From positions 1 to 64,000 of the forward strand of contig JAADHV010000128.1 of assembly GCA_013151635.1 (NCBI GenBank): DNA of 64,000 nt, read 5' to 3'. The notes beneath the pieces are model-generated. The model was not told the origin of the DNA, made no database searches, and saw nothing but the letters and a program-made list of their open reading frames with translations. The position numbers were made by a program, and so were the translations under genes. This document shows positions 57,820-60,686 of the stretch, piece after piece. The stretch is from Deltaproteobacteria bacterium. GTDB taxonomy: Bacteria > Desulfobacterota > Desulfobacteria > Desulfobacterales > Desulfobacteraceae. Each line of letters starts with the position of its first letter. Within the stretch, counting starts at the first letter, position 1.

Positions 57820-58740
57820 ATGGATAAAAAGAAAAGGTATTCGGATTATAATTCTTATCTTAGAGGATTATTTAGCCAAAGAGTGCAGAAAATTGCTGTT
57901 GATGCAGGGCTGTCATGCCCTAACAGGGATGGCAGGCTTTCCTTTAAAGGGTGCATTTACTGCAACAAAAAAGGCTCCGGGTCTGGTAAGTTTGCAAAGG
58001 GGATTTCCATAAAAGAGCAGATCAAGACCGGTAAAATCGGCATGGTGAAAAAATATAAAGCTAAAAAGTTCATGGCTTATTTTCAATCTTATTCAAATAC
58101 TTATGCAAGCCCGGAACATATGAAACAAATATATGATGAGGCACTTTCCTGTGACGGCATGGTAGGAATGGCAATTGGAACACGGCCTGACTGCATTGAT
58201 GAAGAAAAACTTGATTTGATAGAATCCTACACAAAAAAATACCTTGTCTGGCTTGAGTATGGGCTCCAGTCTTCCCATGATTCCACCCTGGATTTAATCA
58301 ACAGGGGGCACTCATATGAAGATTTTTCCAATGCTGTGCAATTAACCCTTGGCAGGGGGATAAATATATGTGCCCATGTTATTTTAGGACTTCCGGGCGA
58401 AGATAAGAAAATGATGCTTGAAACTGCAAGAAGATTGGCTGACAGTGAAATTAACGGGATAAAAATTCATCTTCTTTATGTTATCAAAGGAACGATTCTC
58501 GACAGGATGTGGAAAGGGCGTGAATACACACCCATGGAACAAAAGGAATACGTGGGTACTGTGTGTGACTTTCTGGAATTATTGCCTGGAAAGATTATCA
58601 TACAGCGCATAACAGGTGATCCACACCCAGATGAATTAAGAGCCCCCATGTGGGCCGGCCGGTACAGGGAAACCTTTAATATGATCCAGCAGACCCTTGA
58701 GACAAGGAACTCTTTCCAGGGGATAAGATATAAAAAATAA
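57820..58740 (+). CDS. yhcC: TIGR01212-family radical SAM protein (YhcC-like)
   Basis: A radical SAM enzyme of 306 residues. The cluster motif is CPNRDGRLSFKGCIYCN (CxnCxxC spacing typical of the YhcC group), with AYFQSYSNTYA, GTRPDCIDEEKL and WLEYGLQSSHDSTLDLINRGH characteristic of the elongator-protein-3-like radical SAM subgroup, then HVILGLPGEDKKMMLETAR. Reaction unknown; neighbours in other genomes link it loosely to redox or tRNA functions. Its last ~90 bases are repeated at 60575-60660 in front of apbE, showing that yhcC and apbE once met tail to tail here. Confidence 0.92.
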   Translation: MDKKKRYSDYNSYLRGLFSQRVQKIAVDAGLSCPNRDGRLSFKGCIYCNKKGSGSGKFAKGISIKEQIKTGKIGMVKKYKAKKFMAYFQSYSNTYASPEHMKQIYDEALSCDGMVGMAIGTRPDCIDEEKLDLIESYTKKYLVWLEYGLQSSHDSTLDLINRGHSYEDFSNAVQLTLGRGINICAHVILGLPGEDKKMMLETARRLADSEINGIKIHLLYVIKGTILDRMWKGREYTPMEQKEYVGTVCDFLELLPGKIIIQRITGDPHPDELRAPMWAGRYRETFNMIQQTLETRNSFQGIRYKK

Positions 58741-58762
58741 AAACTATTTTACCGCCAGATCA
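58651..58762. repeat. Direct repeat, copy A: yhcC 3' end plus apbE-like tail remnant
   Basis: These 112 bases match 60575-60686 without a gap and with about 11 differences, all transitions. The copy contains the intact end of yhcC; the part after its stop codon reads NNFDLAVK on the minus strand, a relic of the apbE C-terminus (NFGDLVVK). Confidence 0.9.
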
Positions 58763-58838: not shown

Positions 58839-59567
58839 TCATGAATTTCGTGTGATTGTTTTCCTGCTCACACCGGCAAGACCCAGCAGGCCAAATCCGA
58901 GAAGGAACATGGTTGCAGGTTCCGGAACCGGTTGATCGGAGGAAAAGCCGCGGGCATTGTCATATTTGATCAGCCGTCCAAGTGCTATATAGCCATTGTC
59001 GTTGCTGTTATCAGCATCATCGTAATTGGTATCTATATACTGTACGTTATCCAACCACGCCTGAAGATTGGTGTTGGACCCGTAGCCGGAAACGTCGAAT
59101 CGAAGAGTATGCCAGCCTGCCTGTGCAAAGGGTGATGTTGAAAATGTATAAGAACCAATTGTCGGGTTGCTGCCAAGATATGTATCCAGTATCGTTATTC
59201 CGGTTCCACTGAACTGGGCCAGGTAGCCTGTGTCCCAGAAATGCTGTACCCCACTTAAGTTTTCACTGCTTCTCAGCCTAAGGTGGGCATAGGAAGAATC
59301 GGTATTGGTAAGATCAAAATACGCATCTACCGTGATCGACTGGTACAGGCTGGCCTGATTGCTGCCGTCCTTCCATAGGACAGAATATGGTGTGCCCGAG
59401 GCCTTGAGTTCTCCACCGGAAATAGACCAGGTGCCAGCTTTTGCTGTCCAGCCATCAAGAACGTTGTCATTAAAATTATCCGAAAACGCATACGTGCTGG
59501 CGACGGCCATAACTGGCACCATGAACAGAAAAAATAAACAAAAAACAAGAACAGACAATCGTTTCAT
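58839..59567 (-). CDS. PEP-CTERM sorting-domain protein (gene 3), LamG/concanavalin-like body
   Basis: A secreted 242-residue protein. GGGAGG lies five bases before ATG 59567; the track start at 59585 is too early. A signal peptide (LSVLVFCLFFLFMVPVMAVAS) is followed by a beta-sandwich resembling LamG/GH16-like lectin folds (FSDNFNDNVLDGWTAKAGTWSISGGELKAS). The C-terminus has VPEPATMFLLGFGLLGLAG and SRKTITRNS. Probably an exported matrix or glycan-associated protein. It lies inside the segment flanked by 112-base repeats and has its own sigma-54-type promoter. Confidence 0.9.
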   Translation of the reverse strand: MKRLSVLVFCLFFLFMVPVMAVASTYAFSDNFNDNVLDGWTAKAGTWSISGGELKASGTPYSVLWKDGSNQASLYQSITVDAYFDLTNTDSSYAHLRLRSSENLSGVQHFWDTGYLAQFSGTGITILDTYLGSNPTIGSYTFSTSPFAQAGWHTLRFDVSGYGSNTNLQAWLDNVQYIDTNYDDADNSNDNGYIALGRLIKYDNARGFSSDQPVPEPATMFLLGFGLLGLAGVSRKTITRNS

Positions 59568-59642
59568 CAGAACCTCCCGATTCAATTATTATACATGACG
59601 TTTTTTAGATTACGTCAGGGCTATTATTTTATTTTGTGGGTC

Positions 59643-59718: not shown

Positions 59719-59786
59719 TGAAAAAAATTGTGAAAAAAAGGTAATATATTGTGAAAAAAAGGTAATAAAATATGAAAAAAAGGTAA
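59719..59786. repeat. 21-bp-spaced direct repeats with phased A-tracts
   Basis: TGAAAAAAAGGTAA occurs three times, with GGTAA at 59740, 59761 and 59782, exactly 21 bases (two helical turns) apart. A partial fourth unit (TGAAAAAAA) starts at 59719. It lies 60-140 bases upstream of the PEP-CTERM gene 3 promoter. Phased A7 tracts should bend DNA. Confidence 0.8.
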
Positions 59787-59888
59787 TGGCAAGGACAGAG
59801 ATATCGTGACGGTGGATCCTCGGGCCTGTGGTAGATAATTTACCCTGCCGTTGCATAAAAAAAAGCAAGGAATTAGTAAAGAAAAAGC

Positions 59889-59916
59889 TTGACATGATCA
59901 AATCATAGCTTATATT
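59889..59916 (+). promoter_or_regulatory. Promoter of the ArsR-like gene
   Basis: TTGACA (59889-59894) and TATATT (59911-59916) with a 16-base spacer, a strong sigma-70 pair. The -10 runs directly into the operator-like sequence that follows. Confidence 0.65.
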
Positions 59917-59939
59917 TAAGTCATTGCTTAATCACTTAA
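59916..59939 (+). promoter_or_regulatory. Operator-like site 1 of the ArsR-like regulator
   Basis: A 24-base site beginning TTAAGTCATTGCTTAAT and ending ACTTAA, with TTAAGT/ACTTAA as inverted ends. It agrees at 20 of 24 positions with the site at 60287-60310, and both abut the end of a -10 hexamer. Placement fits repression of the regulator's own gene. Confidence 0.6.
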
Positions 59940-59958
59940 TTGCAATATTGTTGACCGA

Positions 59959-60261
59959 ATGAATATAGAACCTTCTGAAATATTTAAAGTATTGAGCGTT
60001 AAAATATTGAAACAAGCAGGTCTTGTCAGAAGCGAGAAGAAAGGATACTGGATACCATATTCGATAGATGAAAAAGCAATGGAAAATTGCCGGCAAATAT
60101 TAAATGAAGTTTGCACGTGCGGATGCCAGGGATCAGGAAAATATCGGGAAGTTGAATTAGAAAGGTCGGATTTGGAATCGCTGAAAAAATATCAGAAAGA
60201 GCTTAAAAACGAACTTAATACAGTACGGCAGAGAGTAAGAGAGCTGGAGTCTGCAAGATAG
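59959..60261 (+). CDS. ArsR-family regulator with internal deletion of the helix-turn-helix
   Basis: A 100-residue protein. The start (MNIEPSEIFKVLS) and the later block (KILKQAGLVRSEKKGYWIPYSI, the end of the recognition helix and the wing) match ArsR-type repressors. About 35-40 residues that normally lie between them, carrying helices 2 to 4 and most of the DNA-reading helix, are missing without a frameshift. The C-terminal part has a thiol cluster CTCGCQG and a charged coiled coil (LESLKKYQKELKNELNTVRQRVREL). It may be a dead repressor, or a metal- or redox-binding protein that no longer binds DNA alone. Matching operator-like sites precede it and the next gene. Confidence 0.72.
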   Translation: MNIEPSEIFKVLSVKILKQAGLVRSEKKGYWIPYSIDEKAMENCRQILNEVCTCGCQGSGKYREVELERSDLESLKKYQKELKNELNTVRQRVRELESAR

Positions 60262-60281
60262 CAGGCAATTTTTTTTGTGCA

Positions 60282-60310
60282 TATAATTAAGTGACTGCTT
60301 AATTGCTTAA
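60282..60310 (+). promoter_or_regulatory. -10 element and operator-like site 2 before the Cys-rich microprotein
   Basis: TATAAT (60282-60287) runs straight into TTAAGTGACTGCTTAATTGC..., which matches operator-like site 1 at 20 of 24 positions in the same position relative to the -10. No good -35 is visible, so an activator or weak promoter is possible. Confidence 0.55.
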
Positions 60311-60330
60311 GCAGAAAGGAGGTGATTAAA

Positions 60331-60432
60331 ATGGCAGAAAAAAAGAAAGGATGTGGCTGTGGATGCATTCCTGTGAAGCAAACCAGTGAGAAACCAGCCA
60401 AAGACAAAAAGAAAACCAAGAAATCCAAGTAG
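60331..60432 (+). CDS. 33-aa Cys-rich microprotein (not in ORF track)
   Basis: ATG 60331 follows a near-perfect ribosome site, AAAGGAGGTGATTAAA. The product starts MAEKKKGCGCGCIPVK and ends in a lysine-rich tail (KDKKKTKKSK). Three cysteines in CGCGC spacing can bind metal in a metallothionein-like way; this is inferred from composition only. It is the second gene of the ArsR-like pair and shares its operator. A GC-rich hairpin follows. Confidence 0.68.
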   Translation: MAEKKKGCGCGCIPVKQTSEKPAKDKKKTKKSK

Positions 60433-60505: not shown

Positions 60506-60574
60506 AAAGCTATCTAAAAAGTCACACGAAGCGTTGAAAAAAATGATAGAAAGAGTGACTGGTATAGAAGCCTG

Positions 60575-60686
60575 TGAGCCGGTCGATACGGGGAAATCTT
60601 TAATATGATCCAGCAGACCCTTGAGACAAGGAATTCTTTCCAGGGGATAAAATGTAAAAAATAAAAATTATTTCACCACCAGATCA
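60575..60686. repeat. Direct repeat, copy B: yhcC tail remnant plus apbE 3' end
   Basis: Second copy of 58651-58762. Here the apbE end is intact and the yhcC end is the relic (CGGGGAAATCTTTAATATG...). The two copies together show that both genes kept one intact 3' end each. Confidence 0.9.

Follow-up and report, generated by a model that had tools for sequence, protein, structure and literature searches.

The locus raises the question of whether an ArsR-like protein without its DNA-reading helices and the Cys-rich microprotein encoded beside it form a working pair or are what remains of one. It lies in the window, the whole stretch of DNA that was analysed (positions 1–64,000, plus strand, of contig JAADHV010000128.1, assembly GCA_013151635.1, Deltaproteobacteria bacterium, Desulfobacteraceae; genome G000). 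Both reading frames are present as the original prediction described them: a 100-residue ArsR-like protein (59959–60261) and a 33-residue CGCGC microprotein, MAEKKKGCGCGCIPVKQTSEKPAKDKKKTKKSK (60331–60432, from ORF reading and orthologue alignment), the latter preceded by a strong ribosome-binding site, AAAGGAGGTGAT (60315–60326), that is conserved in its orthologues. Both genes and all control elements of the module are on the plus strand. Four near-identical tandem units of the GTGAAAAAAAGGTAATA type (59727–59790) lie 5′ of the arsR promoter and were not found ahead of the module in relatives.

The ArsR-like frame had been described as lacking several helices with no frameshift, and alignment with more than 40 full-length relatives bears this out, with exactly residues 15–50 (36 codons) missing. 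In DNA alignment with L041, L042, L046 and L038 the junction of the 108-nt in-frame deletion falls at 60000–60001, with a microhomology of about 1 nt and no long flanking repeat. Mapped onto an AlphaFold2 model of the full-length protein (pLDDT 80), the lost residues comprise α2 (15–27), α3 (32–39) and eight of the 13 residues of α4 (43–55). The truncated protein keeps α1, the wing, α5, the CTCGC cluster (VCTCGC codons at 60108–60130; its three Cys do not vary among 42 aligned family members) and a C-terminal coiled-coil helix; its own model is of low confidence (pLDDT 65, pTM 0.30). Against the family model NF033788 the window gene scores 25.8 bits (cut-off 55), matching from the wing onward only, and a Pfam search places it in no ArsR family above threshold. 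The full-length relatives are recognized as winged helix-turn-helix proteins, L041 by NF033788 (83 bits, cut-off 55) and L005 by PF01022 (2.1e-13). Judged by these alignments, the window gene is a descendant of the ArsR/SmtB family without the winged helix-turn-helix domain that defines the family. With most of the recognition helix gone, the product should not bind DNA.

Such a deletion might stem from faulty assembly or consensus calling of a draft genome, the organism itself having a full-length ArsR. The draft is in 136 contigs with an estimated contamination of 3.6%, and all close relatives are full length. We nevertheless regard this explanation as very unlikely, since the junction has no collapse-prone repeat, the change amounts to exactly 36 codons and the genome holds no other piece of a full-length copy.

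The original prediction also described two like 24-base sites, one per gene: operator 1 (TTAAGTCATTGCTTAATCACTTAA, 59916–59939) and operator 2 (TTAAGTGACTGCTTAATTGCTTAA, 60287–60310), which stands upstream of the microprotein gene. Each fits the pattern TTAAGNNNNTGCTTAANNNCTTAA without a mismatch, and the 4.2-Mb genome has no third exact match (chance expectation with three mismatches allowed, 0.39 matches per window). Both are of the form TTAAG-N6-CTTAA. Operator 1 directly follows a strong sigma-70-type promoter, TTGACA-16-TATATT (59889–59916), which agrees at 11 of 12 positions in a promoter scan, and a TTGACA-type box is found upstream of arsR in nearly all family loci. At operator 2 the same scan detected no promoter, finding TATAAT only and no recognizable −35 box; the description of the sites as lying directly after the −10 is therefore firm for site 1 only. 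Searching the whole genome for the operator pattern with at most two mismatches gave six matches, two of which are the window sites while another two flank a full-length paralogue discussed below. The one other two-mismatch match that was examined, at C31, belongs to an unrelated locus and gives no support for a regulon. Nor was a wider regulon found among 26 congeners, in four of which the longer operator pattern occurs, at the module only.

Relatives of the module were sought in 145 related genomes and in overlapping sets drawn from the class (390 genomes), the order (390) and the phylum (395), and the GTDB contig collection, searched as well, yielded 80 loci. Of some 1,300 genomes searched, about 70 have a full-length orthologue, and genomes with the family mostly hold a single full-length copy. 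The pair of arsR and Cys-microprotein genes is spread over dozens of genomes of Desulfobacterota and occurs sporadically elsewhere, in draft genomes that include Planctomycetota, anammox and Nitrospirota. The original prediction proposed a search for full-length homologues followed by the same microprotein and operator, and that search succeeded, with both operator positions conserved: at 73 of the 80 loci the roughly 2 kb downstream of arsR include a small CxCxC reading frame on the same strand, mostly 65–130 nt past the arsR stop, against a background of 0.008 per 2 kb and strand in the rest of the same loci. Two of the seven loci without one end at a contig edge. TTAAG-N6-CTTAA (at least eight of ten positions) stands upstream of 74 of 79 family arsR genes (11.5% of shuffles) and of 52 of 62 microprotein genes (13.8% of shuffles). 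The intact module is thus a conserved two-gene unit and, to judge from literature searches for ArsR proteins with Cys microproteins, which returned nothing relevant and no paper describing the module, apparently one not described before.

The arsR stop codon in the window is directly followed by a run of eight T (60269–60276), which is conserved in the family: at least seven T within 25 nt of the stop are found at 69 of 80 family arsR genes as against four of 470 other reading frames in the same loci. This run of seven to eight T is kept across phyla, even where the microprotein is distant, and no stable stem precedes it. Two roles were considered for the region and rejected. An intrinsic terminator between the genes was suggested by a stem scored in the window, but it was dropped as a general explanation because the T run is not preceded by a stable stem in the majority of the family; an RNA hairpin comprising operator 2 and the ribosome-binding site, in which the T8 run would pair with AGAAAGGAGG, was folded at five loci and gave inconsistent structures with no significant energy.

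Different kinds of microprotein accompany the ArsR. Type I, present at 55 loci, has 33–48 residues with CGCGC and a Lys-rich tail ending in KKSK; orthologues of the window microprotein are 58–79% identical, with an invariant C-G-C-x-C and KSK end. Type II (MCQPRG..CTCGCCGCGC..; carriers include L052, L055, L058, L066, L078 and L100) is about 60 residues long, with CTCGCCGCGC followed by a coiled coil, and occurs at 16 loci; three loci have both types. Neither type belongs to a curated family, the window microprotein matching nothing in Pfam or NCBIfam, and its own genome has no other CGCGC microprotein in a comparable gene. The C-x-C-G-C pattern of the ArsR cluster is repeated in the microprotein and one gene seldom occurs without the other, which would suit a microprotein that regulates its partner instead of buffering a ligand, as a small thiol ligand donor or an anti-repressor exchanging metal or sulphur with the CTCGC cluster of ArsR. 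We think this possible but doubtful, as profile comparison of type I with the ArsR C-terminus finds the six-residue motif alone in common (probability 32%). Type II, in turn, aligns with the ArsR C-terminus over 47 columns that take in both the Cys cluster and the coil (38% identity; hhalign probability 97.4%, E 9e-12), and its model matches ArsR itself in 59 loci. Type II is therefore homologous to the C-terminal part of ArsR and is a stand-alone sensor-like module without a DNA-binding domain, encoded in the same operons.

The suggestion that a full-length paralogue might be found elsewhere in the genome was confirmed by a single gene, at G000:C87, which is 55% identical over the matched stretch. 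Its operon has like operators before arsR and between arsR and the next gene, which encodes an acyl-CoA dehydrogenase, and its recognition helix differs little from that of the orthologues of the window gene. With the same pair of operators and a near-identical recognition helix, control of the window microprotein by the C87 paralogue is plausible. A second branch of the family (L002 1378–1791 and 1860–3011; L099, L103, L109 and L111) likewise comprises ArsR, an acyl-CoA dehydrogenase and a microprotein of a third kind, with a C-terminal VCGCGC, located 3′ of the acyl-CoA dehydrogenase gene in relatives. The VCGCGC microprotein is absent from the sequence past the C87 acyl-CoA dehydrogenase gene.

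As a designed feature, the truncation did not hold up: it is not conserved, and all close relatives with the microprotein have a full-length ArsR, the exceptions being a few copies that broke independently. The window copy is thus read most simply as a damaged allele, that is, on this comparison, a damaged member of a conserved repressor–microprotein module. The broken copies differ in what they have lost. One congener (G013) lacks the N-terminal half of ArsR and G379 has a frameshift in the wing, in both cases with the microprotein intact; in another congener (G003) the C-terminal half of ArsR and the microprotein are both lost, as are the N-terminal half and the microprotein in G308. G607 (contig end) and G306 (masked bases) were left out of this count. 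As these copies show, the repressor has been lost repeatedly and the microprotein can persist without it; the truncated gene is probably one of several such copies. At the G003 locus (L149) the 5′ half of arsR runs into the final codons of the microprotein gene, and of the two operators and promoter region 1 only site 1 remains. The idea that a group-1 ArsR breaks only in the presence of a group-2 paralogue was set aside: G000 and G013 agree with it, G379 and G003 have a broken copy and no such paralogue, and the cases are too few.

The remaining reading frame was compared with that of the nearest full-length relative, L041. Over the retained codons there are 12 synonymous and six nonsynonymous differences (dN/dS 0.11), and the window branch carries eight synonymous as against four nonsynonymous changes, with no relaxed constraint; for the microprotein dN/dS is 0.21, with few changes. 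Mainly synonymous divergence cannot date the deletion and is compatible both with a loss that happened recently and with a product that is still of use. A deletion that stays in frame (one chance in three) would likewise fit a useful product, and a recent deletion explains it equally well.

A useful product could act as a thiol or metal sink, or could have a dominant-negative effect by pulling the full-length paralogue off shared operators. Several observations are in keeping with this: both putative dimerization helices (α1 and α5), the thiol cluster and the coiled coil are kept, nonsynonymous change is not in excess, the reading frame continues across the deletion, a full-length paralogue with similar operators exists in the genome, and the type II relatives of about 60 residues offer a natural form of Cys cluster plus coiled coil free of DNA binding. 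Even so, a functional truncated protein seems unlikely to us, because a search of about 1,300 genomes found the deletion nowhere else, the structural model is of the low confidence given above, and the other broken copies lost differing parts, one by frameshift, which looks like decay. A wider version of the idea would have ArsR and CGCGC microproteins constitute a widespread, hitherto undescribed thiol-response module in which some lineages possess a stand-alone sensor module that tunes ArsR by hetero-association, the window ArsR being a second, independent route to a sensor-only antagonist. This is speculative and would seem quite improbable. We consider it likely instead that the window holds a copy of an SmtB–SmtA-like circuit of repressor and buffer whose own repressor has been lost. 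Most likely, the truncated protein does not bind DNA and the microprotein is either derepressed or under the paralogue; it is probably no longer under the control of its own partner.

The surroundings of the window copy bear on how it was acquired. Five congeners were examined, and in four of them the radical-SAM gene and apbE are convergent neighbours about 10–20 nt apart; in the window they are separated by a 1.9-kb insert that holds the module together with a PEP-CTERM gene. The insert is bounded by direct repeats of the radical-SAM/apbE junction (87–90% identical), 114 nt long on the plus strand: the left copy (58649–58762) consists of the end of the radical-SAM gene and a remnant of the apbE 3′ end, and the right copy lies at 60573–60686 (90% identical). 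The module arrived by insertion at this junction. The other gene of the insert, at 58839–59585 on the minus strand, encodes a secreted protein of the PEP-CTERM type. Over the cassette, DNA identity is 92.8% to L041, whose genome belongs to another family, as against 74% to the copy of a congener, and by this measure the window copy is of horizontal origin. A plasmid origin was considered and dropped, as no plasmid-encoded relative exceeded 60% identity or covered 80% of the query.

Among the known systems closest to the module are SmtB–SmtA of Synechococcus PCC 7942 and AzuR–NmtA of Anabaena, in which an ArsR/SmtB repressor controls a metallothionein, a small Cys-rich protein, and, as here, an inverted-repeat operator lies close to where transcription of the small gene is driven (PMC8790569). 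The layout in the window agrees in that a small Cys-rich protein is linked to the repressor and operators precede both genes. It differs in that the genes are co-directional with an operator ahead of each, that the window microprotein has three Cys in CGCGC and a Lys-rich tail instead of a metallothionein fold, and that the α5 metal-site position of SmtB is unused, the Cys of the module ArsR coming after α5. The best fold match to a full-length relative is AfArsR of Acidithiobacillus ferrooxidans [PDB: 6j05, TM normalized by target: 0.75], whose As(III) site is formed by three Cys (Cys95, 96 and 102) towards the end of the C-terminal helices (PMC11868830). When the two are aligned without gaps, the first Cys of CTCGC falls at chain position 95. 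The three invariant Cys of the module ArsR come after α5, similar in place to the site of this type 2 As(III) sensor but differently spaced (C-x-C-x-C as against CC-x5-C), and a 40-residue coiled-coil extension is found in the module ArsR but not in AfArsR. The surroundings differ too, arsenic resistance genes not being recurrent neighbours of the module loci. The persulphide-sensing repressors SqrR and BigR and the Cd/Pb sensor CmtR belong to the same superfamily, and 6o8k is among the fold matches, but their Cys positions differ and the NCBIfam scores are far below the cut-offs (BigR 25.8 of 155, CmtR 29.8 of 150), so that the protein does not match the BigR model. ArsR1 and ArsR2 of P. putida are described as two paralogues in one genome, with shared promoters and a shared regulatory motif, that control arsRBC pumps (PMC7994332); the present module, in contrast, has no linked pump genes. 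The genes that recur beside it encode a CopD-like membrane protein (13 loci in clustering; ten of 79 downstream genes match CopD) and an acyl-CoA dehydrogenase (eight loci), with DsbD and rhodanese-like genes on the other strand in one clade. These neighbours and the AfArsR-like placement of the Cys cluster point to thiol or soft-metal chemistry and lend indirect support to the metal or sulphide response guessed at in the original prediction.

In the intact module, an ArsR dimer would bind TTAAG-N6-CTTAA at its own promoter and before the microprotein gene, a thiophilic ligand (a soft metal, arsenite or persulphide) would free it from DNA by occupying the Cys cluster, and the microprotein would then bind or buffer the ligand as SmtA does under SmtB. 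The 108-nt deletion, by taking α2, α3 and most of the recognition helix, would abolish binding in the window copy, the microprotein of which would then be derepressed or controlled by the full-length C87 paralogue. If the module does answer a soft metal, arsenite or persulphide, it would be a new circuit of the repressor–metallothionein type in sulphate-reducing and related bacteria, and the stand-alone sensor-module proteins would make sensor-only feedback directly testable.
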